DNA from: Sulfurospirillum oryzae
GTDB taxonomy: Bacteria; Campylobacterota; Campylobacteria; Campylobacterales; Sulfurospirillaceae
Assembly: GCF_025770725.1 (NCBI RefSeq)
Contig: NZ_JANZKZ010000002.1
Coordinates: forward strand, 310,001-374,000
Length of the DNA stretch: 64,000 nt
Direction of reading: 5' to 3'
Positions within the stretch are counted from its first letter, which is position 1. The number at the start of each line of letters is the position of its first letter. The notes under the pieces are model-generated. The model saw only the letters and a list, made by a program, of their open reading frames with translations, ran no database searches and was not told where the DNA came from. This document shows positions 10,228 through 63,534 of the stretch, piece after piece. The translations under genes and the position numbers were made by a program.

Positions 10228-12159
10228 TTGGGGCTATTTGATAAGATTAAAGGTAACAATACGGACGGAACAACACAAAGTGATGGTGATACGTCTGAAT
10301 TTAAATCCATTGTAATAGACACTATCAATGTTATTAAAGAACTTAAAAATGTTGCTGCTGCAAATCACCTCAAACCGACAGAGCTTTCTTTTAAGCTTCT
10401 TCGCACCACAACTTATTATAGCGATGAAAAAAGCGAAAATAATGAAATGAATGAAGAAGAGTTAAAGCTTTTACTCGATGATAGCTTTTTGCTCAACCCA
10501 AATCTCAAACTTACACAACATTATCGTGTTGAAATTTATAAAATTGCTGATCAAGAAGATGATCACACAATTTTGCCCGATATAACACTCAGTGGCAATA
10601 AAAGCCTTACCAAAATCATCGCTATGGTTGCGCAAAGTCATGATGTGAAGTACACTTCAAAACTTGAAGAAAAGATGATTGAAGATATTCAAATCAAAAA
10701 GATTAAAGCGGGTATTTTAGTAGGTATTCGCGATCAAAATATGTATAAAGAGGTCAAAAAAATTGTTGCCAATATTAGAGTTAATGGCATCATAGATCAA
10801 AACCAAACTTTTGTCGTATGCCAAGGTGTCGATGAAGTGCCTTCCATCAATGATGACCTTATCTATCACTATAAGAAGAAAATCAATGCTAAAAGTTCAG
10901 ATGGCAAGGTTGATTATTCTAAGAGAGGGTTTGTGCTAGCGGTTGAAAAAGATGAGTGTATTATCGAATACATTAAACCGCAAATGGGCACACCTGGTCG
11001 TAATTGCAGGGGCGCTTATATACCTGTAAAAGAGCCTCGTAAAGCTAACGATATTCCTATTGGTATTAGTGCTAATCTGACTAAAAAAGAGAGTGAAACA
11101 AGTATCAAATATATTGCCAATCGTGGTGGTTATGTTAATTTCGATAAAGGCAATTATGACATTCAAGACCAGATGGAAATCAACGAAATCAGTTTTAAAT
11201 CCACAGGTTCAATTGATGCCAATCTTGGCTCAAATATCAAGATCAATATTAAAGAAAGCGATATTCTCAAAGATGCTATAGGTGCAGGTATGAGTGTTGA
11301 AACGACCGAAGTGCATGTCCAAGGAAATATCGGTAGTGGCGCAAGAATTAAAGCTAAAATTGCTGAAATTGGCGGACAAACACATCAAACTGCCTATATT
11401 GAAGCCGATAAAATCATTATTTCTGTACACCGTGGTGAGGCGAATGGTTCTGATGTCGAAATCGACCGTTTAGAAGGTGGCAAAGTTATCGGTGATACAG
11501 TACATGTAAAACAGATGATTGGTGGTGAGATCATCGCTAAGGTTGTTAAAATCGATAATCTTATGTCCAATGCAAAAATCACAGCTTCAGAAATTTTGGA
11601 AGTGACGGAGCTTAAAGGAACCAATAATAAATTTATCATTGATCCAAGTGTTACCAAAGAGTTTAATGAACTGATAGAATCTATCAATAAAAAAATTCAA
11701 AAACTCGAAGAAGAACTCAAAGCCTTTCCTAGGCAGTTAAGCGCTAAAAAAGAGTTTATTGAAAAAAATAAGCCAATGGCTGAAATGGTAAAAGACAAAA
11801 TTATGGAGCTCAAACGTACAGGCGTTGAACCTCCTGTAACTCTTTTTGCAAAGATTAAAGATTTTCAAGAAAAAGTGATTGATTACAATACCTTCTTGCA
11901 GACATTCAAGGATAAAAAAGAGGAATTGCAAGAATATCGTGATGAGTTAAATAAAGTTCAAAATAAAGTCTTCGCCGCAAAAATTATCAACCATTCGGCA
12001 TGGAAAGAGTTCAATGAGGTACGCTTCAGACTGATTTCCCCTCCTAAAGATGTGACTTATAACCCTAAAGAGCGTGAAATTGCTCGCGAAATTACCTTGA
12101 AAGATATGGGTAATGGAGAGCATAGAATCATTCGCTCAGGTGAGTATAGCAGCAAATGA
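10228..12159 (+). CDS. DUF342/FapA family protein
   Basis: A 643-residue protein of the DUF342 (flagellar assembly protein A-like) family. About residues 180-470 contain the glycine-rich repeats expected of a beta-helix (for example SDGKVDYSKRGFVLAVEKDE, NRGGYVNFDKGNYD, HRGEANGSDVEID). The segment after about residue 480 is a long charged coiled coil. I chose the TTG at 10228, because AGAGGTG lies 5 bases upstream and the protein then starts MGLFDKIKG; the reading frame stays open to a TTG at 10174. The gene overlaps ruvA by 4 bases (ATGA), and the same pair is found in Campylobacter. The cellular role is not established. Confidence 0.8.
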   Translation: MGLFDKIKGNNTDGTTQSDGDTSEFKSIVIDTINVIKELKNVAAANHLKPTELSFKLLRTTTYYSDEKSENNEMNEEELKLLLDDSFLLNPNLKLTQHYRVEIYKIADQEDDHTILPDITLSGNKSLTKIIAMVAQSHDVKYTSKLEEKMIEDIQIKKIKAGILVGIRDQNMYKEVKKIVANIRVNGIIDQNQTFVVCQGVDEVPSINDDLIYHYKKKINAKSSDGKVDYSKRGFVLAVEKDECIIEYIKPQMGTPGRNCRGAYIPVKEPRKANDIPIGISANLTKKESETSIKYIANRGGYVNFDKGNYDIQDQMEINEISFKSTGSIDANLGSNIKINIKESDILKDAIGAGMSVETTEVHVQGNIGSGARIKAKIAEIGGQTHQTAYIEADKIIISVHRGEANGSDVEIDRLEGGKVIGDTVHVKQMIGGEIIAKVVKIDNLMSNAKITASEILEVTELKGTNNKFIIDPSVTKEFNELIESINKKIQKLEEELKAFPRQLSAKKEFIEKNKPMAEMVKDKIMELKRTGVEPPVTLFAKIKDFQEKVIDYNTFLQTFKDKKEELQEYRDELNKVQNKVFAAKIINHSAWKEFNEVRFRLISPPKDVTYNPKEREIAREITLKDMGNGEHRIIRSGEYSSK

Positions 12160-41096: not shown

Positions 41097-41216
41097 TGCA
41101 TGCCTTTACATGTAAAGATAAATAGGGTTGGATTATAGCAAATTTTCATACAAATAGGTTTAGGAAGCTAAAGTATTTATGTATTTATAAAAGAAAATAG
41201 GAAATAAAAAGGAGGG

Positions 41217-41273
41217 TGGTACCTGAGGCCGGACTCGAACCGGCATATGTCTCCATACTAGATTTTGAGTCTA
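41217..41273 (-). repeat. attL: 3' fragment of tRNA-Leu
   Basis: 57 bases identical to 63450-63506 apart from T at 41246 against C at 63479 (variable arm of the tRNA). It contains CCA, acceptor, T arm, variable arm and half of the anticodon stem-loop but lacks the 5' half, so it is not a functional tRNA. The matching part ends within the anticodon stem, a common crossover place for tyrosine recombinases. Confidence 0.9.
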
Positions 41274-41672: not shown

Positions 41673-42767
41673 ATGTTGGATGATGGCGTAGACGTAAGCG
41701 GATTAGCAGCATATAATATGGTTGGGCGGACAATTAAAGACAAATGGGAAGTCAAAGAGTTATTGACAAAAAGACCAGAGGATACAGGTTCTTATTTCTC
41801 AGTACCATATATCGTCGAAAAAGACGGAGTCAAATACTTCATGAAAGCTTTTGATTTTGGCCGTTTTCTATCCATGGCTCCTCCGAAGCATGATGGATCG
41901 CAACAAGAAACATCTGAAATTTTTGCAAAAATGATTAATGCTTATCGATACGAAAGGGATCTGTCGCTTCACTGTCAAAGTAACTATGTAACCAAAGTTG
42001 CCTTTGTCGTTGATTTTAGCGAAGAATTCATCGAAGGGTATACAGCAGGTTTTGTGCCGTGCTTAATTTTTGAGGCAGCTGACGGTGATGTGAGAAAAGC
42101 ACTGCTTGCTTCGGCCAGACTTGATGATGCCTGGAAATTTAAATCCCTCCATGATATTGCCGTAGGCCTTAAACAACTCCACGCAATTGACGTCTCTCAC
42201 CAAGACTTAAAACCCTCTAATATCTTGATATACAACAAAGAACAAGAAAGCAAACTATGTGATCTCGGACGCTCTGTATGTCATAGCATATCAGGACCTT
42301 ACAGCAAATTAGATTTTACTGGTGATAGAAACTATGCTCCTCCAGAGATTTGGTACTATTTTTCTGATCAAGATTGGCACAAACGTTCTTTTGCAATTGA
42401 TTGCTATATGCTTGGTAGCCTCATTGTGTTTTATTTCACAAAAATCAGTATGTCGGCACTTTTAATAAACCACATACCACAATCTTTCCATTTTGCGGTT
42501 TGGAAAGGTGATTTTAAAGAGATATTGCCATACTTGGAAAAAGCATTTGCTGAGTCATTGGATGTATTCGAAAAGAGCATAAATGATTCATATTTCAAGA
42601 AAAACTTAAGAATACTTGTTGAACAATTATGCGAACCAATGCCAGACAAAAGAGGACATCCTGCCAATATTAAAAAGGGAAGAAACCCCTATAGCATGGA
42701 AAGGTTTATTTCGACGCTTGATCTACTAAGGCATAAAGCCGAAATTCGTGTAAAAAAAGAATTGTAA
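41673..42767 (+). CDS. Eukaryotic-type protein kinase
   Basis: A 364-residue soluble protein kinase-fold protein. The ATP-site lysine is K58 (YFMKAF), with a candidate helix-C glutamate at E94. The catalytic loop is H176-Q-D-L-K-P-S-N183, the metal aspartate is in D197-L-G, the activation-segment end is A222-P-P-E225, and D243 sits in the IDCYMLGS helix. All key catalytic residues are therefore present. The glycine-rich loop is atypical, with a single Gly (EDTGSYFSVPYIV). No membrane segment or sensor domain is seen. The gene overlaps the TPR gene by one base (TAATG), so the two form a unit. The role is unknown; a stress or phage-defence module is an inference from the context. Confidence 0.8.
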   Translation: MLDDGVDVSGLAAYNMVGRTIKDKWEVKELLTKRPEDTGSYFSVPYIVEKDGVKYFMKAFDFGRFLSMAPPKHDGSQQETSEIFAKMINAYRYERDLSLHCQSNYVTKVAFVVDFSEEFIEGYTAGFVPCLIFEAADGDVRKALLASARLDDAWKFKSLHDIAVGLKQLHAIDVSHQDLKPSNILIYNKEQESKLCDLGRSVCHSISGPYSKLDFTGDRNYAPPEIWYYFSDQDWHKRSFAIDCYMLGSLIVFYFTKISMSALLINHIPQSFHFAVWKGDFKEILPYLEKAFAESLDVFEKSINDSYFKKNLRILVEQLCEPMPDKRGHPANIKKGRNPYSMERFISTLDLLRHKAEIRVKKEL

Positions 42768-44371
42768 TGATTAGTGTTAGCACAGAACATGACAGACATG
42801 TAATTCCCAATTGGAGGAGCTTTGGTTCCACTGTGTCCTTGGGGGAATTAGATGCGTATCAAACTGTTGAAAGAAATTTTCCAAAAGTGTACGATATCGA
42901 CGAATACATCATCGATTTTCAAATTAATAAAACAACCGTTCATGCTTCAGAGCTCATCAGTGCTGCGATCGCAAATAATCGATTAGAAGCAAAAGAAGTT
43001 GAAGAAGCAGCATATCTTATTTTAAAAAACAGTGATAAAGTAACAAGCTTACAATTTGATCTTGCAAAACAGATTCTCTCTCCAGAACTTTTACATAAAC
43101 AGTATATAAATCATCATCATGAAGAGGATTTACTACGATATTTTGAAGATCATGAAACAAGGATTAAAGACAAAATCAAATGTGCACGAGATTCATTAAA
43201 ACAATTCAACTTTAATCCTGTTTTATATGTTGAACTGTCGCGCTATTATTCAATTATTGGAGAAGAAGCAAAATCAATACACGCAATGAAAATAGCGATG
43301 CATCTAGCAAAAAACAATCGTTTTGTTTTTAGATGTGCCACAAGGCTTTTTGTGCACTATCATAGTGAAAAAAACGATTATTTAGAGCAAATGCAACGAT
43401 ATCTGCAAAAAACGCCGATGGTATCCCATGATCCGTGGTTGATGTCCGCAGAAATATCTTTGTCTACACTGTTAGATAGAAGCTCAAAGTTTGTAAAAAA
43501 AGGAATAGGAATTATTGACTCAAAGAACTACGCTCCTTTTAGTTTGACTGAGCTTGCAAGCAATATTGCTACGATCGAAATGTTTCATGGTAGCCGCAAA
43601 AGAAGCAAAACATTATTCAAAGAAGCGTTAAAAGCTCCAAATGACAATACTCTCGCACAAGTCAAATGGGCTTTACGTAAAGACCCATCGCTGGAGGGAT
43701 CTTTACAGGTATCGTTGGATAGTTTCGATACCAAGAAAAAATTTGAAGCGCTAACCTATGATTCATATTTTGGAAGAAAAGATTTTAATGAGACACTAAC
43801 GCAAGCGATTCATTGGCTAATCGATCAGCCCTTTTCAAAAGATGCGGCGATGTTCGGCTCCAATATAGCAGCGACACTAGTGAGCGATCAAGACAAAGCG
43901 ATCGCACTCGTTAAAGCTGGTCTTTTAAGCCATCCTGATGATCCAGGGTTGATCAATAATTATGCGTACTCTTTATCACTTGATAATCGTCCGGATGAAG
44001 CATTGGATATGCTCAATAAAATGAAAGCAAGCAATATTGCAGAAGAAACAAAAATATGTTTAAAAGCGACACGAGGGCTTGCCCTATTTAGAACGAGACA
44101 GCATGAGCGAATAGAAGAAGGAAGAGCGCTATACCAAGAAGCGATCTCTGATACAAAGAAAATGAACAATTCTAATCTGAATTGGACGGCGATTATAAAC
44201 TATGCTCGAGAGGAACTTATCCACGACTCAAAAAACGCTGTTGAGATTGTAAAGTTGCTTGACATGATTCCTTCGGAGACAAAGAACCCTTCAATTGATT
44301 TCCTAAAAAGTGATTTGATGGGTCAATGTCTCGATACGATGAAAAGTCTTGTCGCAAATAGCCCTAAATAA
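42767..44371 (+). CDS. TPR-rich partner protein of the kinase
   Basis: A 534-residue soluble helical protein. Repeated helix pairs such as NPVLYVELSRYYSIIGEEAK, NNRFVFRCATRLFVHYHSEK and DPGLINNYAYSLSLDNRPDE, followed by ALDMLNKM, look like tetratricopeptide repeats (about residues 145-490). The N-terminal 110 residues have no motif I recognise. It is translationally coupled to the kinase and ends 3 bases before the right-hand copy of the 24-bp repeat. It could be the substrate, scaffold or sensor for the kinase; no enzymatic domain is visible. Confidence 0.7.
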   Translation: MISVSTEHDRHVIPNWRSFGSTVSLGELDAYQTVERNFPKVYDIDEYIIDFQINKTTVHASELISAAIANNRLEAKEVEEAAYLILKNSDKVTSLQFDLAKQILSPELLHKQYINHHHEEDLLRYFEDHETRIKDKIKCARDSLKQFNFNPVLYVELSRYYSIIGEEAKSIHAMKIAMHLAKNNRFVFRCATRLFVHYHSEKNDYLEQMQRYLQKTPMVSHDPWLMSAEISLSTLLDRSSKFVKKGIGIIDSKNYAPFSLTELASNIATIEMFHGSRKRSKTLFKEALKAPNDNTLAQVKWALRKDPSLEGSLQVSLDSFDTKKKFEALTYDSYFGRKDFNETLTQAIHWLIDQPFSKDAAMFGSNIAATLVSDQDKAIALVKAGLLSHPDDPGLINNYAYSLSLDNRPDEALDMLNKMKASNIAEETKICLKATRGLALFRTRQHERIEEGRALYQEAISDTKKMNNSNLNWTAIINYAREELIHDSKNAVEIVKLLDMIPSETKNPSIDFLKSDLMGQCLDTMKSLVANSPK

Positions 44372-44373
44372 GA

Positions 44374-44565
44374 GCTATAAAAGAGCTGCTTAAAGATAGG
44401 CTGGCTGCTTATTATCATTGGGATAATGAACAATGCTTACAACAAGCGATATGGGTTACTCAACAAAATCAAGTAGATATGGAAGCCATTAAGCAATGGT
44501 CACTCAAAGAAAAATCAGAACAAAAATATTTAAATTTCTATCACAAACTTAAAATTAAAAATTAA
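44374..44565 (+). pseudogene. 3' remnant of a nucleotidyltransferase-associated (DUF6036-like) gene
   Basis: An open frame of 63 codons without a start: AIKELLKDRLAAYYHWDNEQ, then CLQQAIWVTQQNQVDMEAIK and a tail ending KLKIKN. The KDRLAAYYHW...QAxxV...IKQWSxKE pattern resembles the C terminus of DUF6036-type nucleotidyltransferase-like proteins, to my recollection. It lies on the right boundary of the kinase-TPR cassette. The first eight codons are shared with the mqsR-like remnant through the 24-bp repeat, so this is a recombination junction. The gap 44372-44656 otherwise holds only a short ATTACA/TGTAAT inverted repeat at about 44610-44626. Confidence 0.45.
44375..44398 (+). repeat. Right copy of the 24-bp repeat bounding the kinase-TPR cassette
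   Basis: Matches 41537-41560 at 23 of 24 positions. It starts 4 bases after the stop of the TPR gene. Confidence 0.8.
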
Positions 44566-44656
44566 CGCAATACTATTTCTGAGCTAGTCACTAGGAAATA
44601 TAAAGAACATTACACTATGATGTAATCGTTCATTTAAAGTAAATACTGAGGCAACA

Positions 44657-47600
44657 ATGTCAAACAATAGCACTCAAGAAGTGGAAGAAAAAGAACTGAA
44701 AAGACACAAATATAAAAGTTTAGCACCAACAATTTTATCATCTAAAGAAATTGCAAAAAAAGAAGAATACTTTAATATACTAGAAGATGCTTTAGATGAT
44801 GAAAATACAAATAATATAGCCATTACCTCACCATATGGTGGAGGTAAAAGTTCTTTTATTAGAACTTTTATTTCAATACAAGAAGATGAGGGAAAAGCAA
44901 AAAAAACAAATACACAAAATTTACCTCTTCTGCTCTTTGAAAAATTACATTTAAAAAAGTATAAATATAAGTTTTTACATATTTCACTTGCCTCATTTGG
45001 AGAAAAAGACAAAGAAGGCAATATTATTAACGCCGAGCAAGAGAGAATTGAAAAAAGTATATTAGAGCAAATGTTTTTTGGTGAGAAATGGAGTCACTTA
45101 AAACATTCTGGTTTTAAACGAATAAAAAATATCAATCCATTAATAATTATGATGCATTTAACTCTACTTATCTCATGGATTATTGTTTTTTTGTCTTTGT
45201 GGAATATAGGTATTTTAAATAGTTTTTATAAAATATTGACGCCTCCAGACATGTTCTTTTTTTCTATAATAATTGGATTTGTCATTCTTTCTTTAGGAGG
45301 ACTTCGCACATTATCAGAGTTAATTACTTATTTTAAAATCAAAAAACTAGTATTTTTTAAAGATGTTGAAATTGAGATAACTGGTGATGATAAATCCGTT
45401 TTAAATAGATATATAGATGAAATATTATATTTCTTTGAAGAAACAGAGTACAACGTAGTTGTCTTTGAAGATCTCGACAGATTTGAGAAACCAGAAATAT
45501 TTAGAAAACTAAGAGAGATAAATCTTATTATTAATAAATCAAGAGTTCTAAGAAAAAAACTTAAACAAGTTAGTTTCATTTATGCAGTAAAAGATGAAGT
45601 TTTTGATACTGAAGCAAGGACTAAATTCTTTGATTACATTATTCCTCTAGTGCCTGTTATCAGTTCCTATAATTCATATATAAAATTGAAAGAAGAACTA
45701 GGTACATTCCTTTATGATAAATCTAAAAAAAAGTCCATTTCTATAGACGATAAAAGAACACAAGGTCAAAAATATATTAGTAACCAGTTACTTAAAAAAA
45801 TATCTTATTATATAACCGATATGAGGCTGTTAATAAATATAACTAATGAATTTAGGCTTTACCATTCGCAATTAGATAGTACAATTATCATGGATCAGCT
45901 TCTATCTATTATCGTTTTTAAAAATATTATGTCAAGTGAATTTTCAAAACTGCAAAAAGATGAAGGCACTTTATTTTCTCTATTTAATAAAACAAAAGAC
46001 TTTATTATTGACAAGCAAATTGAAATAATAGATGCAAAGATTGCGAATCTTAAAAGAGAAATTACTGAAACACAAAATACATTTTTATTTAGTATTCAAG
46101 AGTTAAATAGCATTTATCTCATGGCTGTACAACAATCTACTAGAACCCTAAATACTATTTATAAAATCTATATTGAAGATGAAAAAGATTTTATTGACGT
46201 AACAGAACTTTTAAAAAATGCTGATTTCTTGCCAATAATATTTAAAAACAAAAATCTTCAATGTCAAGATTTATATAATAATTCTTTTTCAATAAGTCTT
46301 GATTTACAACAAATAGAAGAATATATACCATCAAAATTATCATATAGAAGCAGACTTGATCAGATAAATAATCAAACGTCGTTATCTGATATTCGAGATG
46401 AAATAGATGAACTAGAAAAACAAAAACAAGAACTAAAAGGATACAAATTAAGCCAAATACTGACTAGTCCTTTTTTCAAAGACTCAATGAATCAAATGAC
46501 CGAAAAAGAAAAAGAAACACAACTCCTTGAAAATCCTCTTATTAAAATACTTCTTCAAGATGGGCTTTTAAATGAACAATATCACACATTAATATCCTAT
46601 TTTATGACTACTGAGGGAGAATTACAACTACAAGACAAACAATTTTTAATGTGGGTATTACAAAGAGAGAAGAAAAAACTTTATGATTATCAGCTTACAA
46701 CACCAAATAAAGTTGCGGAAGAACTTCAAGAAGAAACGGTCATTCACTATAGTGTTTTAAATTTTGATTTATTTAATGAAATTTTATCCAATTTCGCTAA
46801 ATATTCAAAAATAGAAGCAGAAAATAAATCACTATTTACAAAATTTCTTACTGCTATAAAAGAAACAACAGATGAATATTTTGTGTCTTCCTATTTTGGA
46901 CATCTTCGAGAACTCAATAAGCAAAACGAAATCAATGAACATATAAAAATATTAGCAGAAAATTGGGATGGATTATGGAACTATTATGTACATGGATATC
47001 CTCCGGGAAGCATACATGACTTTTTGTACAAGCTTTTTGAAGTATGTTCAATTGAAACCATTAAAAAACAAGACTACGCTGGTAGAATTAAAAGACATAT
47101 TGAAAATGATTTAGATTTTGAAGTATTTTATCTTAGGAAGCATGATGATCAAAAAAAAGCTAAAGAGGCACAAGATAGACTTGTCGCTTTTTTGCAAAAA
47201 AACAATATTACTTTACTTAATTTAGGAAGATTAGCGGCGGATGAGCGATTACTACAAAAATTTTATGAATCTAACCTGTATATGTTAAATGCAAAAAATG
47301 TCTCAGTTATTCTTTCGGGACAAAATGCGACATATACTAATATTTTAAAATCACAAAAACAACAATTGATAGAACGAGTTAACAAAAATTTAAACAATTA
47401 TCTTAAAAATGAGCTTTTGGAAATAACCGATCCGTATGAAGACGCTAATGTTATGCTTGATCTTATAAATGCAGCTAAGATTACTGGTGGCATTGAGATT
47501 GAAAAAGATACCCTAGAATCTCTAATTAAAAAAAAGATTTTTTGTATCGACGATATTAATAAAGTCATGTGGGATGATAAAAAAATTATAGAAATCTTAT

Positions 47601-48526
47601 ATGCCAACAACAAAGTTTCATTCTCATGGAAAAATATTGTTTCTTATGCTGACAAAATATCTGATGGGCAAGTAGATGAAACATTATTCAGTTTTCTACA
47701 AAATAGTATTGAAAGCGGTACTCTACAAAAATATCCAGATAATGAAAATTTTGATAAAAAATTAGTGGATAAGTTGTTTTATAGTTTAATTAATGAGGAA
47801 AGTGACTATGTAGAAGAATATGATTTAACAAAATCATTAATGCTTTTATGCCCTCAATATAAATACCTTAGATCTGATTTTACAAAAATTGATGACAATA
47901 ATCTTAGATTGATTATTGAACTAGAACGAATAGAATTAACTCCTACTCATTTTGAAAGAATATGGGAAAAAGGAAGTCATAATAATGCAATTGAACTAAT
48001 AAAAAGGAATTTTGATTATTTTATAAAAAGAATTGATACCTATGATATAAATTCTGAACAATTAAAGAGCTTCCTTGATCAAAGCATCTTAATTGTCGAA
48101 CAAAAAGAAAAAATACTTCAAAAATTAGATAGTTCTTTAATTAGCAACCAAGATGAAGCGAAATCTATTTATAGATTTTTAACATCAAATAAATTTAATA
48201 ATTATTATAAATTTCATGCATGGATAATGCAAACGATATCTATGATTAACCATGGCAAGCTAAGCTTACAATTACTACTTTTAGAAATAAAATCTTTAAA
48301 TGAAAAAGAATTAAGAGATGCTTTGATATTGATAAAACACGAAAAAGATGTTTATTATCATATCGCAACATATGGGAAGGATCTCAGGAGAAATGATATA
48401 TATTTAGAGATTACTGACAATACAATGTTACTGATAACAGAACTTAAAAAGCGAAATATGATTTTAAATGTTATTGAACGTAAAAATTGTTATCGATTTA
48501 GTATTAAAATAAGAAATAAATTATAA
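44657..48526 (+). CDS. Large YobI-like/KAP-like P-loop NTPase
   Basis: A 1289-residue protein. The N-terminal segment RHKYKSLAPTILSSKEIAKK, followed by Walker A SPYGGGKSSF (K64), matches the YobI-type P-loop NTPases. Two membrane helices (about 161-186 and 199-218) are inserted before Walker B (NVVVFEDLDRFE, about 266-277), as in KAP-type NTPases. The remaining 900 or so residues are helical and charged with no motif I recognise; they could be a sensor or effector region. The gene is strongly AT-rich compared with its neighbours. It is followed after 9 bases by an ART-like gene, suggesting a two-gene system, probably defensive. Membrane-inserted P-loop NTPases of this type occur in phage-exclusion systems (PifA-like KAP NTPases). 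Confidence 0.72.
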   Translation: MSNNSTQEVEEKELKRHKYKSLAPTILSSKEIAKKEEYFNILEDALDDENTNNIAITSPYGGGKSSFIRTFISIQEDEGKAKKTNTQNLPLLLFEKLHLKKYKYKFLHISLASFGEKDKEGNIINAEQERIEKSILEQMFFGEKWSHLKHSGFKRIKNINPLIIMMHLTLLISWIIVFLSLWNIGILNSFYKILTPPDMFFFSIIIGFVILSLGGLRTLSELITYFKIKKLVFFKDVEIEITGDDKSVLNRYIDEILYFFEETEYNVVVFEDLDRFEKPEIFRKLREINLIINKSRVLRKKLKQVSFIYAVKDEVFDTEARTKFFDYIIPLVPVISSYNSYIKLKEELGTFLYDKSKKKSISIDDKRTQGQKYISNQLLKKISYYITDMRLLINITNEFRLYHSQLDSTIIMDQLLSIIVFKNIMSSEFSKLQKDEGTLFSLFNKTKDFIIDKQIEIIDAKIANLKREITETQNTFLFSIQELNSIYLMAVQQSTRTLNTIYKIYIEDEKDFIDVTELLKNADFLPIIFKNKNLQCQDLYNNSFSISLDLQQIEEYIPSKLSYRSRLDQINNQTSLSDIRDEIDELEKQKQELKGYKLSQILTSPFFKDSMNQMTEKEKETQLLENPLIKILLQDGLLNEQYHTLISYFMTTEGELQLQDKQFLMWVLQREKKKLYDYQLTTPNKVAEELQEETVIHYSVLNFDLFNEILSNFAKYSKIEAENKSLFTKFLTAIKETTDEYFVSSYFGHLRELNKQNEINEHIKILAENWDGLWNYYVHGYPPGSIHDFLYKLFEVCSIETIKKQDYAGRIKRHIENDLDFEVFYLRKHDDQKKAKEAQDRLVAFLQKNNITLLNLGRLAADERLLQKFYESNLYMLNAKNVSVILSGQNATYTNILKSQKQQLIERVNKNLNNYLKNELLEITDPYEDANVMLDLINAAKITGGIEIEKDTLESLIKKKIFCIDDINKVMWDDKKIIEILYANNKVSFSWKNIVSYADKISDGQVDETLFSFLQNSIESGTLQKYPDNENFDKKLVDKLFYSLINEESDYVEEYDLTKSLMLLCPQYKYLRSDFTKIDDNNLRLIIELERIELTPTHFERIWEKGSHNNAIELIKRNFDYFIKRIDTYDINSEQLKSFLDQSILIVEQKEKILQKLDSSLISNQDEAKSIYRFLTSNKFNNYYKFHAWIMQTISMINHGKLSLQLLLLEIKSLNEKELRDALILIKHEKDVYYHIATYGKDLRRNDIYLEITDNTMLLITELKKRNMILNVIERKNCYRFSIKIRNKL

Positions 48527-49168: not shown

Positions 49169-50293
49169 ATGCTTAAATCTGTAGGCGGAAAATATGAAGG
49201 CGTGTGGATAAACGAACTTAAAAATGGAGATGTAAGCTATTATATCAATTATCGAGATGCCGATGGTAAACCTACACGAACATTAGTTGGTAAAAAAACT
49301 TCTGCTAGTGATTTTACTGCTAGAGATGCATATGCAAAACTTATTGAAGTTAAATACAAATTACAGCACGAAGAAGCACCGAAAATATCTGCTGGTAGAG
49401 TTAAAAAAGTAAAATTTGATGATATTTGGGGTAAATACCTTGAATGGGCTAAAAATAATAAAAAAAGTTGGCAGACTGATTCATGGAATTATGAGAAACA
49501 CTTAAAGCCATTTTTGGGAAATAGAGCAGTCAAAGAGATTAAAAGTACAGACTTCGAATCATTTAAAACTGAAATGGCTTCTAAAACAAACGCTAAGGGT
49601 GTAAAAATCTCAAACGCAACTGTAAAGCATCAGTTAGTGCTAGCTCGCCATATTGTCAACTATGCGCTCAAAAATGACCTAATCAAGGATTATACTAATC
49701 CTATCGCAAATGGTCGAGTTAGAATGCCTCAAATTGATAATGCAAGATTAGCTTTTTTAACAAAAGAACAGGCCAAAGAATTACTTGAAATATTGTGGAC
49801 ATTAGATCGACAAACTTATCATCTAACTAAAATTTTACTGCTTACTGGTGCACGTTTAGGCGAAGTCACATCACTTCGATGGCAAGATATTAATTTTGAT
49901 ACAAATACGATTTTCTTTAAGAAGACGAAACGAGGTAATGAAAGGCATATTTATATAAACGATAGTCTTATAGAAACTCTTAAAGAGCTATCAGAAAATC
50001 AAAAAAGTGATTTAATCATTAGCACTTCAACGGGAGGTCAATTACTTAAAATGCCAGCTCATTTTGATACGGCGATTGAAGCTGTGATACCAGGTAATAA
50101 AAATAAAGAGGCTAAACAAAAAATCACAGCTCATAGCTTGAGACATACTCATGCTAGTTGGCTCGCAATTAGTGGACTTGATATCTTACAAATTAAAGAG
50201 CAGTTAGGACATAAAACAATTGAAATGACAATGAGATATGCCCATTTGATACCAAACAAAAGACATGAAGCAACAAAAATGATTAATATCTAA
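49169..50293 (+). CDS. Tyrosine recombinase (phage-type integrase)
   Basis: A 374-residue site-specific recombinase. Catalytic residues are R229 (TGARLGEVTSLRW), H322 and R325 (HSLRHTHASW), H348 (LGHKTIEM) and Y357 (MRYAHL). A SAM-like core-binding domain lies at about 80-190, and an N-terminal arm-binding-type domain at 1-60. AAGGA precedes the ATG. It should catalyse integration into and excision from the tRNA-Leu site. Unusually, it is about 8 kb from the left end and 13 kb from the right end, not next to the tRNA. Confidence 0.93.
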   Translation: MLKSVGGKYEGVWINELKNGDVSYYINYRDADGKPTRTLVGKKTSASDFTARDAYAKLIEVKYKLQHEEAPKISAGRVKKVKFDDIWGKYLEWAKNNKKSWQTDSWNYEKHLKPFLGNRAVKEIKSTDFESFKTEMASKTNAKGVKISNATVKHQLVLARHIVNYALKNDLIKDYTNPIANGRVRMPQIDNARLAFLTKEQAKELLEILWTLDRQTYHLTKILLLTGARLGEVTSLRWQDINFDTNTIFFKKTKRGNERHIYINDSLIETLKELSENQKSDLIISTSTGGQLLKMPAHFDTAIEAVIPGNKNKEAKQKITAHSLRHTHASWLAISGLDILQIKEQLGHKTIEMTMRYAHLIPNKRHEATKMINI

Positions 50294-55847: not shown

Positions 55848-56270
55848 ATGAAATTTGAAACAGCAGATCAAACATACGCATTTTTTGAAGAGGCGAGAGT
55901 TGTATTAGCAACTCTTGAAGACAAAATAGAAAACTTCAATAAAGCTTCTCAGCGATTTGAAAATGCACAAAATGAATTTTCAAACATTGAAAAAAACATT
56001 GAAAATATCGGTAAAAGAATTGCTGAAAAAATACATGTCACTACTATTCAAGAGCATTTAATTAATAGTGTAAAAGTATTAAAAAATGCGGATGATGAGA
56101 TTATTGAGATAACTAGACTTATTCAGCAAAGAAGAAAAGATGAAAGATCTAATTTGATTATTATACTTGTATCTTCATGTGTAGCTACACTCTTTACATG
56201 CGGAATTTTTATAGCGTTTGAAGCGGCGAATAAACCTCTTTTCAATCTTATCTATCAATTCGTTCATTAA
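55848..56270 (+). CDS. Coiled-coil protein with a C-terminal membrane anchor
   Basis: A 140-residue protein. A long coiled coil (about 20-100; NFNKASQRFENAQNEFSNIE) is followed by a single membrane segment near the C terminus (LIIILVSSCVATLFTCGIFI). This shape is often seen in the small proteins around relaxase genes of MOB elements. It starts 3 bases after the previous gene. The function is unknown. Confidence 0.6.
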   Translation: MKFETADQTYAFFEEARVVLATLEDKIENFNKASQRFENAQNEFSNIEKNIENIGKRIAEKIHVTTIQEHLINSVKVLKNADDEIIEITRLIQQRRKDERSNLIIILVSSCVATLFTCGIFIAFEAANKPLFNLIYQFVH

Positions 56271-56280
56271 GGAGAACACC

Positions 56281-57060
56281 ATGAAAAATATCGCAATTAT
56301 TAATACCAAAGGTGGCGTAGGTAAAAGCACCCTCGCTTTTCACGTTTTACCGGCCATTTTATCGGATAGAAATTTTGAGATTATCGAGATCGATAACAAC
56401 AATAAAACGACTACGGCGTTTTTAAATACACAGATTCTCAAAGGGAAAATCATCTCGTTAAATATTCAAGAGGGTACGCAAAAACTTGAGGAACTCGTCG
56501 TCACCAATATGCTCGATGAGGACAAGATCAGCGTGATTGATGCCGGTGGTGGTGATGATTCACTGAAAGTAATCCATACATTTATTGATCAAGACTTGAT
56601 AGCCGATACACTTTTTATCATCCCTTTTATGCCCGATTTCGTTCAGCTTAAAAACCTCGTAGATACATACAACGTTTTACCGTCTGAAGCAAAAATTCTA
56701 GTGGTGTTAAATAACGCGGATCTCAGTGATCCTGATCATCTTATGTTCGTCAAAGGTAACGAGGACTTTGAGATCCCTGATATCTCATCTACCTTTACGC
56801 ACTTTGCTGTTTGTCCGAAAACTCCACTTTTTTCTTATGCCGCTTCACGCAATAAAGAGACGATCAAAGATCTTGCTCTACTCGCAAGCCAATATAACAA
56901 AAACGAGATACTTGAGTATGCGAAGACAAAAACAAAAAGCGATAAAGACAAAATGACGAAGATCTATCGCAATTGGAAAATTTCACGTAACGCGAAAGAC
57001 TATCTCGAGAGTGAAGCGATCGCACAGCTAAAAAGCATTGTTTTGGGAGAGCAAGCATGA
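56281..57060 (+). CDS. ParA/StbB-like deviant Walker A ATPase
   Basis: A 259-residue ATPase. The deviant Walker A is NTKGGVGKSTLAF (residues 8-20), and EIDNNNKTTTAF follows. The Walker-B-like segment is KISVIDAGGGDD. A ParB partner is not recognisable. Next to a MOBF relaxase and a small DNA-binding protein this resembles the StbB position of the R388 plasmid, where StbB takes part in localising DNA for transfer. AAGGAG lies upstream of the ATG; the frame begins at 56218. It overlaps the next gene by 4 bases. Codon use is visibly more GC-rich than in the preceding genes. Confidence 0.8.
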   Translation: MKNIAIINTKGGVGKSTLAFHVLPAILSDRNFEIIEIDNNNKTTTAFLNTQILKGKIISLNIQEGTQKLEELVVTNMLDEDKISVIDAGGGDDSLKVIHTFIDQDLIADTLFIIPFMPDFVQLKNLVDTYNVLPSEAKILVVLNNADLSDPDHLMFVKGNEDFEIPDISSTFTHFAVCPKTPLFSYAASRNKETIKDLALLASQYNKNEILEYAKTKTKSDKDKMTKIYRNWKISRNAKDYLESEAIAQLKSIVLGEQA

Positions 57061-57329
57061 AGTACGAAGATTGGATTGCAAAGAACACGCCCTTAAAGCG
57101 TGTCTCTTCTCTTGAGCCTTATCGAGATGAAATTCAAAAACTCGTGAATTTAAACTACACGCATAATCAGATCGCTGATTATTTACAAGAAGTAAGAGGC
57201 CTTGAGATATCAAGGCAGCAAGTTCAAAAGTTTCTCTCGAAAAAAACAACCAAAGAAAAAGCGGTGCAAGCTGACAAAAGTGAAACACCGAAAGTCAGTT
57301 TAGAGGATAAGTTCAAAGGATTCCTCTAG
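57057..57329 (+). CDS. Small HTH DNA-binding protein before the relaxase
   Basis: A 90-residue protein with a helix-turn-helix-like core: LVNLNYTHNQIADYLQEVRG, then LEISRQQVQKFLSKKT, and a charged tail. Such small proteins lie next to the origin of transfer and bind it (TrwA/StbA/MobC analogues). It is coupled to the ParA-like gene and ends 19 bases before a direct repeat array, so it is the most likely binder of that array. Confidence 0.6.
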   Translation: MKYEDWIAKNTPLKRVSSLEPYRDEIQKLVNLNYTHNQIADYLQEVRGLEISRQQVQKFLSKKTTKEKAVQADKSETPKVSLEDKFKGFL

Positions 57330-57348
57330 GGCTTAAAAGATAGGTAAT

Positions 57349-57458
57349 GCAACCTCGTGCCACCGTGATGCTACCGAAAGCAATCGTATGCAACCACTTG
57401 CTACTCAATGCTATCGAAAAGCTACCAAGTGCCACCAAAGAGCAACTCAAAGGCAACC
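57349..57458 (+). repeat. Helically phased array of 11 GCNACC-like units (candidate oriT/partition site)
   Basis: Units start at 57349, 57359, 57370, 57380, 57390, 57400, 57410, 57421, 57431, 57442 and 57453: GCAACC, GCCACC, GCTACC, GCAATC, GCAACC, GCTACT, GCTATC, GCTACC, GCCACC, GCAACT, GCAACC. Spacing is 10 or 11 bases, mean 10.4, close to one helical turn. The rest of the gap (57330-57348 and 57459-57526) contains only the inverted repeat listed separately and an AG-rich stretch before the relaxase ATG. Confidence 0.85.
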
Positions 57459-57500
57459 GAGAAAACATTCACACCCAACGCCACGTTAATGGCACGAGGT
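57352..57500. repeat. 11-bp inverted repeat flanking the phased array
   Basis: ACCTCGTGCCA (57352-57362) and its complement TGGCACGAGGT (57490-57500), separated by 127 bases. The left arm overlaps units one and two of the array; the right arm lies 26 bases before the relaxase ATG. An inverted repeat near a relaxase gene is expected for an oriT, but the nic site is not identified. Confidence 0.6.
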
Positions 57501-57526
57501 GAAAAAAAGACGAAAAAGAGACAAAA

Positions 57527-60394
57527 ATGCTTTCAATTGCAAATATGAATAGCGCGCAAGCGGCTCATTATCATGCAAAAGATCAAAACTACTATCAGCA
57601 AAATAAAGAGACAAGCGTTTGGGCTGGCAAAGGTGCTGAACGTTTAGGCTTGAGCGGTGAAATAGATATCAAAAAATTTGAGCGATTATGCTTTGGTATT
57701 CATCCTTGCGAAGAACGCACTCTTGTTGATATCAGTGAAAGAGCGGGAACGGATCTAACCTTTTCTGCTCCAAAATCCGCATCGATCTTATGTGAATTAG
57801 GTGATGAACGTACCAATCAACTCATACGTGCAGCACATGATCAAGCGGTGCAAACCACACTGTCATTTGTAGAAGATCATTATGCGCAAACAAGAGAACA
57901 AAAGGACGGGCATAGAGAAGCAATCTCAACCGGTAATCTCATCATCGCTAAATTTCAACACGATACCAGTAGAGAAAATGACCCATCATTGCATACGCAT
58001 TGCTTTATCGTCAATGCAACGCAGAAGGAGAACGGTGAATGGAGAGCGTTGCACAATGATAAGCTCTTCACTCACAAGATGTTTTTAGGTCAGACGTATC
58101 GCAATGAATTGGCCAAAAATCTTCGAGACCAAGGATTTGCTATTGAGGTTACAAATGCCAAAGAGGGATTCTTTGAAATTCAAGGTGTTTCCAAAGAGCT
58201 GATCAGTGAATTTTCACAAAGGCGTGAGCAAGTCCTCGAGAAATACGAGGAGCTAAAAAAGCAATATCCTGGTCTCGAGGGAGAAAAACTCAAAGAGATG
58301 GCAACAACCGGCAGCCGAAACGTGAAAGATAAAAACGCTGATCGTAACGTCATTAAATACAACAATATCGAAAGAGCCAAAACCATTGTCACCGGTAAAG
58401 ATTTGACCTATCTCAATCAGCTTAATAGCTCACATGCCAATCATGAACATCAAAAATTAACGGCTAAAGATGCGGTGGATCTTTCGATTCGTATTCAAAG
58501 CGAAAAGACGAGTGTATTTAATCGTGAAGATGTGATGAAAAACGCAATGAAGCTTTCGTTAGGCGAACATTCACTGAGTGCTATGCAGAATGCTTTTGAT
58601 GATCATGTAAATGAGCGATCGATTGTGCAATTGGATCAAAATGCCTACTCTACACCAGAGCTCTTGCAAAAGGAGTTTGAGATTGTTGCAATGGCAAAAA
58701 ACCGCACAGATCCTTTAATCTCTGCTCAACGCGTGGAGCAGTATCTAAGCCATACGCCTTATAGCCTCACAAAAGGACAACAAGAAGCGTATGCACACAT
58801 TCTCTCAAGCAATGAGTCTATTTCAGTGATCCAGGGCGATGCTGGTACGGGTAAAACGTTTATGCTCAAAGCCGTTAGAGAAACGCTTGAAAGTCAAAAA
58901 CAAAGTAGCAATCTACGAGGACTCGCTTTTACTGGAAAAGCCAGTGAAGAGCTTGAGCGTGAAAGTGGTATCCCCTCTACGACGTTACACGCCTTTTTTG
59001 TGAGTCCACCGGCGGAAAAGAATATGGTTTATATCGTAGATGAGGCGTCAATGGTCAGTTCGTTACAGATGCACCACTTATGTGAGATTGCTAAAGAAAA
59101 CCATTCAAAAATTGTGTTTATCGGTGATCAAAAGCAGTTCCAATCTCTAGGTGCTGGCAATATGTTTTCGCAGCTTCAAAAGCAAAGTGATATTCGTATC
59201 GTCGAAATGACTGAGAATAAACGCGCGCAAACAGAATTGATGCGATCGCTTTATTCGTCTATCAAGAGCAAGGATTTAGAAGAGGCGTTTGGCATTTTAG
59301 AAAAGCACCAACGCCTTCATGAAACAACGGATCTCGAGAGGATCAAAAACGAATACCTCAAAGATCGTCATGATACGTTACTCTTGGTTGATACAAACGC
59401 GAATCGTAAAGCTTTAAATGAGTTAATCAGAGCGGATCTCGTCGCTCAAAATGAAGTCACACAGTCTCAACCGTTATCTATCAAAGAGGCAATCAATCTA
59501 AACGAGATTGAAAAACACTACTCGAGCAATTATCAAGTAGGTCAAATTGTTGTCGCACAAAATGCGTTTCAAGGATTTAGTGCCGGGCAAGAAGGGATGA
59601 TCACCGCGATTGATCATCCATCCAATACGATCACGGTTACCAAAGATGAGCAAAGGATCAAAATTGATCTAAGCAAAGCTCACGCTCAAGCAATTCAAAC
59701 TTTTGCTATCAAAGAAAAAGCATTTGGTGTCGGCGACAAAATCGTTTTTACAAAAAACAATCGAAACCTCAAGTTTAGAAATGGTGAGGCCGCTGTGATC
59801 CAAGCAATTCATGGGAATATCATCAAAGTGCAAAAGGGAAATAAAGAGTTGGCGTTTGATGCTTCCAAGTATCCTTATATTGATCATGGATACGTGATTA
59901 CAGCGCATAAAAGCCAAGGTCAAACTACTAGTAGGGTTATCGCTTTCACGAATGCACAAATGGCCAATTTAAACCGCTTCTACGTGCAAATTACCAGGGC
60001 AAAACGTGATGCCTTGATCTATACCAACAGCATAGCAACACTCAAGGAGAATACACAAAAAACGCAAATCAAAACAAGTACCCTAGATTATTTTAGGTCG
60101 GCAATGCAGCATGAGGCACATACAAATCACAATTACGAAAGGACATTCAATGAGCAAAAAGAACGAAGAATATCAAGAGGATCAACTCTTTCAATACTGG
60201 GAGACTATTGCACAAAGCTCAAAATTGCACTCGCAGATCTTAGCCGACATTTTGGCATATTTAAAGGAGATCGACGAGAGATTGAAAGCACTCGAGGCAA
60301 AGATCAAATGAAAAATATCTTAATTGATAATGTTAAACAAAACAATAAAAATATAAATCGAGAGCAAACTTTGGAGAAAAAAAGGAGCCGCTAA
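57527..60394 (+). CDS. MOBF family relaxase-helicase (TrwC/TraI type)
   Basis: A 955-residue conjugative relaxase fused to a RecD-like helicase. The relaxase start (AAHYHAKDQNYYQQNKETSV, then WAGKGAERLGLSGEID) aligns well with TrwC of R388. Catalytic tyrosine candidates are Y15, Y22 and Y23. The three-histidine metal site is in FQHDTSRENDPSLHTHCFIV. The helicase has Walker A GDAGTGKT at 437-444, Walker B YIVDEASMVSS, and the late motif AHKSQGQTTS. It cuts oriT, stays bound to the 5' end and unwinds DNA. The ribosome site is weak. Its last 245 bases also carry the nested ORF at 60150. Confidence 0.93.
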   Translation: MLSIANMNSAQAAHYHAKDQNYYQQNKETSVWAGKGAERLGLSGEIDIKKFERLCFGIHPCEERTLVDISERAGTDLTFSAPKSASILCELGDERTNQLIRAAHDQAVQTTLSFVEDHYAQTREQKDGHREAISTGNLIIAKFQHDTSRENDPSLHTHCFIVNATQKENGEWRALHNDKLFTHKMFLGQTYRNELAKNLRDQGFAIEVTNAKEGFFEIQGVSKELISEFSQRREQVLEKYEELKKQYPGLEGEKLKEMATTGSRNVKDKNADRNVIKYNNIERAKTIVTGKDLTYLNQLNSSHANHEHQKLTAKDAVDLSIRIQSEKTSVFNREDVMKNAMKLSLGEHSLSAMQNAFDDHVNERSIVQLDQNAYSTPELLQKEFEIVAMAKNRTDPLISAQRVEQYLSHTPYSLTKGQQEAYAHILSSNESISVIQGDAGTGKTFMLKAVRETLESQKQSSNLRGLAFTGKASEELERESGIPSTTLHAFFVSPPAEKNMVYIVDEASMVSSLQMHHLCEIAKENHSKIVFIGDQKQFQSLGAGNMFSQLQKQSDIRIVEMTENKRAQTELMRSLYSSIKSKDLEEAFGILEKHQRLHETTDLERIKNEYLKDRHDTLLLVDTNANRKALNELIRADLVAQNEVTQSQPLSIKEAINLNEIEKHYSSNYQVGQIVVAQNAFQGFSAGQEGMITAIDHPSNTITVTKDEQRIKIDLSKAHAQAIQTFAIKEKAFGVGDKIVFTKNNRNLKFRNGEAAVIQAIHGNIIKVQKGNKELAFDASKYPYIDHGYVITAHKSQGQTTSRVIAFTNAQMANLNRFYVQITRAKRDALIYTNSIATLKENTQKTQIKTSTLDYFRSAMQHEAHTNHNYERTFNEQKERRISRGSTLSILGDYCTKLKIALADLSRHFGIFKGDRREIESTRGKDQMKNILIDNVKQNNKNINREQTLEKKRSR
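60150..60311 (+). CDS. Small coiled-coil protein nested in the relaxase gene (53 residues)
   Basis: A frame shifted against the relaxase, starting MSKKNEEYQEDQLFQYWETI and ending LKEIDERLKALEAKIK. It has a good ribosome site (AAAGGACATTCA) before the ATG, and its amphipathic heptads are more typical of a real protein than the relaxase reading of the same bases. The frame extends upstream to 60111 but the inner ATG fits better. An overlap of this size is unusual, so this is a candidate, not a certain gene. Confidence 0.5.
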   Translation: MSKKNEEYQEDQLFQYWETIAQSSKLHSQILADILAYLKEIDERLKALEAKIK

Positions 60395-61019: not shown

Positions 61020-62585
61020 ATGAGAATAGAGACAGCAACTTTTTTAATTCTGATAGCTGCTAATACGATAATATCTTACCAAGTTCAAAAAGAATTGGGC
61101 ATTCATAAAGCTCTTATTTTTACAATACTGAGTTTTTTTGAGTACATTATTTGGCATATGTTCATTAGAGAATACTCAAAAATAAACGATAGACTTTTTG
61201 ATGTCAAAAGTTGGCTTATGGGCAGCTATGCAAACTTTTATGGGCAGAGTGAGGGCAACAGGTGGACACCTTCATGGTTAGTAAAACAAAAGATGAAAAA
61301 TGGAGATCTTTTCATTGACAAATTTAGGTTTGATGGAAGTGTATTAAGAAATTTCAAATTTTTTAGTTTCAAAAAATGGTTTAATAATTTTGATTGTTAC
61401 ATGATTCCTTCTGATTTAAAAAAAGGTGGAATTGTTTTCGGAAGCATGGGCGCTGGAAAAACAGAATTGTTTCATTCGATTCTATCTCAACCAGAATTTG
61501 ATAGAAAATTTATATATGACAGTAAAGGCGATTTTACTCAGAAACATTACAGATCAAATAGAGATATTATTTTGAATCCATATGATGCCAGAGGGCATGT
61601 TTGGAATCCGTTTGAAGAAGCCAATACAAGTCCTTTTGTTGTTGGTATATTTATGACAAATCTATTTAACGCAATTGCTGGAGATAAAAAAGATTTCTTT
61701 AGTGCAGGTTCACAAGACCGTTACATGGAATTATTTAATAGCATTCAATATATGGATTCTAAACTGACAGCAAAACAAAAATTTGATTTATTTATTAAAC
61801 TTTTAAAAGAGTATTTTGAAGCACCTCAAACACAATCACGCACAAGTGAAGCAGATATAGCAAGCACGATGAAGCTTTCATTTGAATTTTTTGATTATAT
61901 GAATTTTTGTATTCAAAATGGAAGTCCAACTTTTACAATTCACAATTATTTATCACAAAAAAATTGTGACCTATTTTTACTGTCAAGAGATGATCAAAAG
62001 TCAAAATTAACAGCATTTTTTACTGGATTTTTAGCTGCATTCGTGGCTGTCATGTTGTCTCAAGAAGATAGAGATTCTTTAACCCTTTTAGCTCTCGATG
62101 AGTATCTTTCTTTTGTAAGGAATATGGATAGCGAAACAATCGAAAGTTTGCATGTAAGAATTCGAAGTAAAGGTGGTTGTCTTCTGCCTGGAGTTCAATT
62201 TTTTCCTGATGATCATTTATCCGACGGTCTTACTCAGAAAATATTAAATTCTACAACTTATTGGTTTTTATTCCAGGGCATTGATGAATACACATTAAAT
62301 AAAATTGGTTCTACTGTAGGTAAAGTCAGATATAAAAAAGAACAAGCTAAAGATATTCGTGCTGAACGCTTTGCTAATAAAGATTACTCCATTGAAGAAT
62401 CTGACTTGCTCAATATTAGTATTTTTCATTCATTGGGAGAAAAATACGAACACATCACATTTATACCATCGAGGAAAATTTTATATAAAGGGTATACGCC
62501 ACAAGTCAAACTGAAAAATAGAAATGAGAGCTTTATTCAGAGTGAGAATATTGCTAAATTTTATCAACAAAAGTCGAGAGCTTGA
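61020..62585 (+). CDS. VirD4/TraD-like type IV coupling protein
   Basis: A 521-residue membrane ATPase that brings the relaxase-DNA complex to a mating channel. Two N-terminal membrane helices (ATFLILIAANTIISYQVQ, ALIFTILSFFEYIIWHMF) are followed by Walker A GSMGAGKTELF at about 140 and Walker B LLALDEYLSF near 360. SLHVRIRSKGGCLLPGVQFF is the region after Walker B. The protein is shorter than TraD. No VirB4-type ATPase lies with it, so it probably uses a channel provided by another element. Confidence 0.85.
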   Translation: MRIETATFLILIAANTIISYQVQKELGIHKALIFTILSFFEYIIWHMFIREYSKINDRLFDVKSWLMGSYANFYGQSEGNRWTPSWLVKQKMKNGDLFIDKFRFDGSVLRNFKFFSFKKWFNNFDCYMIPSDLKKGGIVFGSMGAGKTELFHSILSQPEFDRKFIYDSKGDFTQKHYRSNRDIILNPYDARGHVWNPFEEANTSPFVVGIFMTNLFNAIAGDKKDFFSAGSQDRYMELFNSIQYMDSKLTAKQKFDLFIKLLKEYFEAPQTQSRTSEADIASTMKLSFEFFDYMNFCIQNGSPTFTIHNYLSQKNCDLFLLSRDDQKSKLTAFFTGFLAAFVAVMLSQEDRDSLTLLALDEYLSFVRNMDSETIESLHVRIRSKGGCLLPGVQFFPDDHLSDGLTQKILNSTTYWFLFQGIDEYTLNKIGSTVGKVRYKKEQAKDIRAERFANKDYSIEESDLLNISIFHSLGEKYEHITFIPSRKILYKGYTPQVKLKNRNESFIQSENIAKFYQQKSRA

Positions 62586-63387: not shown

Positions 63388-63449
63388 AAGGATTTTTTTG
63401 AAACTTAAAAAGAAAGGAAATAAGCTTTAAAAACTCGATTTAAAGGGGA

Positions 63450-63506
63450 TGGTACCTGAGGCCGGACTCGAACCGGCACATGTCTCCATACTAGATTTTG
63501 AGTCTA
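63450..63506 (-). repeat. attR: 57-bp direct repeat inside tRNA-Leu
   Basis: The 3' part of the intact tRNA gene, matching attL at 56 of 57 positions. It restores a complete tRNA after integration. Confidence 0.9.
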
Positions 63507-63534
63507 GCGCGTCTACCAATTTCACCACTCAGGC
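63450..63534 (-). tRNA. tRNA-Leu (anticodon CAA)
   Basis: On the minus strand the gene starts GCCTGAGTGGTGAAATTGGT and ends in the encoded CCA. The acceptor stem GCCTGAG pairs with CTCAGGT. The anticodon stem-loop CTAGA-CTCAAAA-TCTAG gives anticodon CAA. The long variable arm (TATGGAGACATGT) and the T arm GCCGG-TTCGAGT-CCGGC show a class II leucine tRNA. It is the integration target of the element. Confidence 0.97.

Follow-up and report, generated by a model that had tools for sequence, protein, structure and literature searches.

What is a run of short, helically phased repeats doing between a small DNA-binding protein gene and a relaxase gene in Sulfurospirillum oryzae? The window, that is, the whole 64,000-nt stretch of DNA analyzed here, carries this run at 57349-57458. 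The features that surround it are given below with their coordinates in the window.

41209-63506, no strand: integrative element of 22.2 kb with a 65-nt direct repeat at its two ends (41209-41273 and 63442-63506)
49169-50293, + strand: tyrosine-recombinase-like integrase, recognized by sequence inspection, inside the att repeats
55848-56270, + strand: coiled-coil-like protein of 140 aa with one predicted C-terminal membrane segment (Kyte-Doolittle 2.50), directly upstream of the ATPase
56281-57060, + strand: ParA/StbB-like ATPase (CbiA/AAA_31) with Walker A motif KGGVGKST near the N-terminus
57057-57329, + strand: StbA-like HTH protein of 90 aa, the proposed array binder, based on a structure model and on the similarity of its family to StbA in a profile-profile comparison
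57349-57458, + strand: array of 11 phased units RWGCNAYY, based on direct reading, shuffles, and recurrence in five relatives
57527-60394, + strand: MOBF (TrwC-type) relaxase-helicase (PF08751, E 1.7e-85; NF041492)
61020-62585, + strand: TrwB/TraD-type coupling protein (PF10412, E 6e-27)

The order is membrane protein, ATPase, HTH protein, array, predicted nic, MOBF relaxase, and coupling protein. A first-pass annotation made from the letters alone had named a small HTH protein, a ParA/StbB-like ATPase, and a MOBF relaxase as the neighbors of the array, and profile matches and a structure model bear this out. For the ATPase, the best full-length match was the NCBIfam StbB model NF041292 (E 9.2e-8, residues 3-242), at a score below the curated cutoff. 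Similar small membrane proteins are encoded directly upstream of the ATPase in four related loci (L069, L071, L049, and L113), and the sequence suggests that the 140-aa protein is a possible membrane anchor. The 65-nt direct repeat matches the end of a tRNA-Leu(CAA) gene at 63450-63534. A complete set of mating-pair genes was not seen within the element, suggesting that it is mobilizable rather than self-transmissible. Beside the left att repeat, at 41673-48526, a protein-kinase-like gene, a TPR-like gene, and a gene for a 1289-aa P-loop NTPase were recognized by eye; this cargo is possibly a defense island. The coupling protein is ∼60% identical to those of the relatives L069 to L073, whose relaxase is 94% identical, and related copies of the element adjoin tRNA-Ser in complete chromosomes, whereas the window element sits in tRNA-Leu. 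Based on these two differences, we infer that the module of ATPase, HTH protein, oriT, and relaxase moves between integrative elements.

Direct reading of the array places the unit starts at 57349, 57359, 57370, 57380, 57390, 57400, 57410, 57421, 57431, 57442, and 57453, with spacings of 10, 11, 10, 10, 10, 10, 11, 10, 11, and 11 bp (mean, 10.4 bp), exactly the eleven units and spacings first reported. The consensus is RWGCNAYY; 7 of the 11 units contain GCNACC exactly, and the remaining four (GCAATC, GCTACT, GCTATC, and GCAACT) each differ from it by one change. When the 197-bp intergenic region was shuffled 20,000 times with dinucleotides preserved, the longest chain of GCNAYY at 10/11-bp steps had 2 units, compared to the 11 observed. 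A motif-free test, in which any 5-mer with at most one mismatch could serve as the unit, gave a score of 7.5, which none of 5,000 shuffles reached (highest shuffle score, 5.5). In a scan of step pairs from 6/7 to 17/18 the pair 10/11 scored best (7.5), with 9/10 as runner-up (3.8). No further GCNAYY chain of at least three units was found elsewhere in the 64-kb window, unlike in R388, which has secondary arrays in other promoters.

Heptads of 3.5 residues per turn correspond to about 10.5 nt, and A-rich coding DNA can yield weak 10/11-bp chains (maximum score in controls, 4.5), so that such a pattern might reflect chance or coding periodicity. That origin is extremely improbable here, and we rejected it: none of the 20,000 shuffles produced the array, the spacing is kept through sequence divergence, and the region is noncoding, given that the preceding reading frame stops at 57329, the relaxase gene does not start until 57527, and the steps are not multiples of 3.

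The sequence between the array and the relaxase gene resembles a MOBF origin of transfer, with the following features.

57471/57470, − strand: predicted nic GGCGTTGGGTGT^GAATG, with the cut at 57471|57470, based on likeness to the F and R388 nic sequences and on relatives
57480-57493, − strand: hairpin GCCA-TTAACG-TGGC, the predicted relaxase recognition site, 5' of the predicted nic and kept in all six elements
57363-57373 and 57490-57500, no strand: 11-bp inverted repeat ACCTCGTGCCA / TGGCACGAGGT, seen by direct reading, linking the beginning of the array with the oriT hairpin

The segment ACATTCACACCCAACGCCACGTTAATGGC is conserved in all six close elements, and its bottom strand reads as the hairpin followed by GTTGGGTGT^GAATG. 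The hairpin GCCATTAACGTGGC and then an F/R388-type GTTGGGTGT^G thus occur on the same strand beside a TrwC relaxase, as expected for a MOBF oriT. The cleavage positions in F (GCGTGGGGTGT^GGTGC) and R388 (GCGTATTGTCT^ATAG) are established, and the corresponding sequences of more distant relatives bridge the two, with GCGTCAGGTGT in L049, GCGTATGGTCT in L050, and CGTCAGGTGT in both L053 and L068; a comparable hairpin stands at the equivalent place in all four. The 11-bp inverted repeat is broken in relatives L070 and L072 and is probably dispensable, since it is not strictly kept.

The predicted nic lies 12 bases past the last array unit, and the distance from the start of the last unit to the predicted nic is 17 to 20 nt in the window, L049, L050, and L068. 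The first-pass annotation had placed the array upstream of the relaxase, and this is correct as far as it goes (the array ends ∼70 bp before the relaxase ATG), but the array abuts the predicted nic and hence would be part of oriT. A cut of the bottom strand at this site would put the array, the HTH gene, and the ATPase gene on the leading (3') side, so that the leading strand would enter through these first and through the relaxase gene last. All stb operons likewise lie on the leading side (PMC3098194). The locus therefore resembles stb both in its leading-side genes, conditional on the predicted nic, and in its helically spaced repeats close to oriT.

The AlphaFold model of the HTH protein has helices at residues 3-9, 20-31, 36-47, and 53-66, followed by a disordered, low-confidence tail (mean pLDDT, 69). 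A fold search with this model returned generic HTH matches only, of which a phage small terminase scored highest (Z 6.5), and the solved StbA domain, 7pc1, was absent from the rows returned. The window protein alone matched no StbA model, nor did it match DUF5338, the domain of TraK, which R751 TraK matches with an E value of 5.7e-29. Compared as a family, the HTH proteins matched StbA of the R388/R46/NAH7 type in a profile-profile comparison (P 2.6e-6; probability, 89%; 65 collinear columns). The homologue in L113 matched an StbA profile at 3.6e-4 and had no match to R388 StbA in pairwise BLAST. It is likely from these profile comparisons that the HTH protein is remotely homologous to StbA, and an StbA-like way of working on direct repeats is better supported than strict membership in the StbA family.

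Five relatives carry the same module, and the array recurs in all five with the same phasing. The six elements fall into allele A (window, L069, L070, and L073) and allele B (L071 and L072), a single contrast of four genomes against two. ATPases (89 to 93% identity) and relaxases (93 to 94%) are about equally similar between all six elements, whereas the allele-B HTH proteins are only 69 to 74% identical to that of the window. The fixed differences between the alleles are concentrated in one block.

57163-57454, + strand: specificity block, extending from codon 36 of the HTH gene through the last repeat, with 68 of the 84 fixed A/B differences (counted over 4 kb) in 292 bp

No fixed A/B differences occur in 56641-57162 (522 bp) or in 57455-57891 (437 bp). 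Within HTH codons 35 to 90, amino-acid-changing differences between the alleles reach 0.39 to 0.46, compared to 0.04 to 0.18 elsewhere, and synonymous-only differences are unremarkable (0.11 to 0.13). The allele-B array reads GYAACC, and its first seven spacings are identical to those of allele A; it is longer by a single unit, which measures exactly 11 bp. The first-pass annotation had held that its reading would fail if related elements kept the coding frame across the array and lost the spacing, and the relatives came out the opposite way, with the spacing kept, the letters changed, and the added unit measuring 11 bp. The co-change of protein and array suggests that, for specificity, the repeats and the half of the HTH protein that reads DNA are a single unit. 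Because the repeat letters and the recognition half diverge together and the phasing stays, specificity can apparently change without a change of architecture. The allele difference may have arisen either by recombination or by selection in place. In one allele-B element (L072 in G014), the HTH gene at 10932-11186 carries a frameshift near the C-terminus that leaves 84 aa, and the array is kept.

Homologues of the HTH protein occur across the Campylobacterota and in MOBP plasmids of Salmonella/Citrobacter. We applied a uniform test to the DNA flanking 30 family loci, excluding near-duplicates of the window, and found a strong 10/11-bp array (z > 4.5) beside 16 of them. Among 61 control triples taken from these loci, just one passed that threshold (Fisher p 8e-9, Mann-Whitney p 2e-9). 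In the same test no array was detected at L063 or L107, L053 was weak, and many A+T-rich family arrays were only marginal. The units include GTGAAC (L049), TGCAA (L050), TTATTA (L065 and L115), CAAAAG (L057), 18 copies of TCAAGAA (L058), 16 of CTTCC (L061), 6 of TTGAGAA (L100), and 13 of a YGCA-type unit, YGCAC, in the MOBP plasmid pB72C (L025). They are unrelated in sequence and range in composition from AT-only to GC-rich, and their mean spacing is usually 10.3 to 10.6 bp. Phased arrays do recur beside homologous HTH genes, with units that differ. The stb regions of R388 and NAH7 were also positive in the phasing test, with TGCA-type units at strict 11-bp steps.

The last two steps are 11 and 11 in the arrays that abut the oriT region (window, L071, L049, L050, L065, L057, L059, and L068), a post hoc observation that serves as a lead only, since the array ends were chosen by the algorithm and the nic side is uncertain in L057, L059, and L065. 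The array lies directly upstream of the HTH gene in L058, L056, L061, and L025; in the first three the order is array and then HTH gene, followed by the ATPase in L058 and L061. In L113, a Sulfurimonas element (HTH gene at 2709-3008), the relaxase ATG at 3001 overlaps the HTH stop, so the array and oriT core are apparently missing between them. TTCGAA-type repeats at 10/11-bp steps were also seen ∼290 to 380 bp upstream of MOBF relaxases in Acidobacteria (L137, L144, L149, L154, L158, and L176), and no HTH-family gene was detected beside these arrays.

Some ATPases of this type are circularly permuted. Such genes adjoin the HTH gene in L049 (5250-5996), L050 (6266-7027), and L113 (1941-2696), and the permutation is also seen in L192 (G153:C3:37268-38008) and L193 (G343:C1:1705885-1706628). 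In these proteins the Walker A motif (STKGGVGKS) is at the C-terminus, and the remainder aligns from the second strand on. The AlphaFold model of the L049 protein is fairly confident (pTM, 0.80); a fold search with a permuted ATPase returned no matches, a result that says little if the aligner is bound to chain order. We know of no described circularly permuted ParA.

Phased units, their conservation through sequence change, their co-change with the HTH protein, recurrence, and a place beside the predicted nic were all observed here, and we conclude that the array is probably a binding array for the StbA-like HTH protein, forming the leading-side half of oriT and serving, with the ATPase, to control transfer and positioning. 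The first-pass annotation had proposed an array for the HTH protein that acts in oriT and/or partition in the manner of StbA, and allele co-change, kept phasing, and recurrence lend support to that proposal. We weighed this reading against the possibility that the array is mainly a transcriptional operator for the relaxase/coupling-protein operon with no structural role in oriT. Its closeness to the relaxase ATG would suit an operator, as would the placement of the R388 stbDRs around the stb promoter (PMC3098194), and the family arrays directly upstream of HTH genes would suit autoregulation. We consider a purely regulatory function possible but rather doubtful, because arrays of 11 to 18 units far exceed the needs of a simple operator and the array keeps a fixed position relative to the predicted nic in the window, L049, L050, and L068; a search for sigma-70-like promoters, itself a weak test, also found none in the array region.

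It is somewhat unlikely that the array is a partition centromere, with the HTH protein and ParA-type ATPase segregating an excised circle and the location at oriT incidental. The operon includes a gene for a ParA-superfamily ATPase, R388 depends on StbA for its stability (PMC3098194), and divergence of the compatibility type described for ParR/parC (PMC9426499) would explain the fast co-divergence of protein and array. Against partition, the element is integrated in tRNA-Leu, with its related copies beside tRNA-Ser in chromosomes, and the position of the array is closely linked to that of the predicted nic. Sites for accessory proteins near nic are usual in MOBF oriTs, and periodic base composition can itself favor bending, so the array might instead serve another protein (IHF/HU, a TrwA/TraY-type protein, or the relaxase) or act through intrinsic curvature. 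We regard this as improbable, since the repeat sequence tracks the DNA-binding half of the HTH protein exactly and does not follow the relaxase or ATPase, arrays stand beside the HTH gene even where the other neighbors differ (L058 and L025), and the units vary in composition from AT-only to GC-rich.

If the array does bind the HTH protein at oriT, several copies of the protein would sit on the GCNAYY half-sites, all in head-to-tail orientation and on the same side of the helix, and could form a filament or a gently wrapped nucleoprotein complex starting ∼12 bp from nic. This complex may in turn be acted on by the ParA/StbB-like ATPase, for which the membrane protein encoded upstream could be the anchor, and the excised element or the relaxosome would thereby be positioned at the membrane. 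By analogy with R388, where the two proteins are antagonists in that StbA restrains conjugation and StbB is needed for conjugation if StbA is present (PMC3098194), the array-bound HTH protein might restrain or license transfer. Because the element is integrated, we favor a role in transfer or relaxosome positioning over classical partition, and a role in stability would come into play only once the element is excised. Autoregulation by the HTH protein likely runs in parallel. More tentatively, such arrays may represent a widespread class of recognition site in mobile elements in which only the helical geometry is conserved: half-sites would follow one another in head-to-tail order along one side of the DNA, the array would be anchored to nic and have its 11-bp steps closest to that site, and the half-site letters would diversify together with the HTH recognition region by selection against cross-recognition.

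StbA, StbB, and the stbDRs are already known, so the kind of system is known. Four features are new: the GCNAYY unit, the arrangement as one long 10/11-phased block next to the predicted nic, a family in the Campylobacterota whose units vary widely, and a natural allele swap. We met with no account of them in the open-access literature, where the R388 paper was the sole direct precedent that we found for helically phased arrays of such a kind; this is weak evidence of absence. The StbA-type link between plasmid positioning and conjugation is poorly understood, and knowledge of it rests largely on R388. The HTH family offers many natural pairs of protein and array, two of which are alleles in an almost constant background, so that two questions become testable: whether phasing is by itself enough for function, and whether changes in the repeat letters give rise to compatibility groups. 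The family further offers a rule for finding oriT without dependence on sequence, namely 10/11-bp phased repeats beside an StbA-like gene and a relaxase.

The closest known counterpart is the stb system. In the IncW plasmid R388, and likewise in R46 and NAH7, genes for an HTH protein and an ATPase of the ParA superfamily lie to the leading side of a MOBF oriT, which is also where the predicted nic places them in the window. The window ATPase adjoins the HTH gene, as an StbB would, and its Walker A motif fits the StbB group with a classical motif (PMC3098194). Close to nic, R388 has short direct repeats spaced by one helical turn (11 bp), as the window has close to its predicted nic, and StbA binds the R388 repeats in vitro (PMC3098194). 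The repeats of both systems contain a GCA/GCN core, but the unit is GCNAYY here and TTGCATCAT in R388. The window and its relatives have one block of 11 or 12 units with mixed 10- and 11-bp steps, whereas R388 has two blocks of five at 11 bp (PMC3098194); the first-pass annotation, which had described a different unit and a greater length than in R388, was thus right about the unit, and the length is only modestly greater. The window runs from ATPase through HTH protein, array, and nic to relaxase in one direction and lacks the stbA-stbB(-stbC) order with repeats in the promoter region, in contrast to R388, where stbABC is divergent and the repeats lie in the stb promoter region. Also unlike R388 stb, the window system is part of an integrated element and its HTH protein is only remotely similar.

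Other systems share parts of this arrangement. The plasmid pB72C (MOBP, MPF_I type, Salmonella/Citrobacter) encodes a clear HTH homologue (43% identity over 49 aa; profile P 3.5e-9) next to a TraL-like ATPase gene and shares with the window a 10/11-bp array, which lies beside its mobC/relaxase region. It differs from the window in its MOBP relaxase, its other unit, and the position of the array upstream of the HTH gene. TraK of RP4/R751 has been named as a homologue of StbA (PMC3098194). TraK (DUF5338) binds the oriT region, and one member of the HTH alignment matches DUF5338 weakly (E 4e-4); unlike in the window, no 10/11-bp array was found by the phasing test in the traJ-traK interval of R751. 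The ParMRC systems of Clostridium perfringens plasmids are built differently, with an actin-type ParM and with ParR/parC as another protein and site. They resemble the present case in that related elements carry diverged pairs of DNA-binding protein and site, and there recognition is cognate only and the diverged ParR/parC pairs define plasmid compatibility (PMC9426499).
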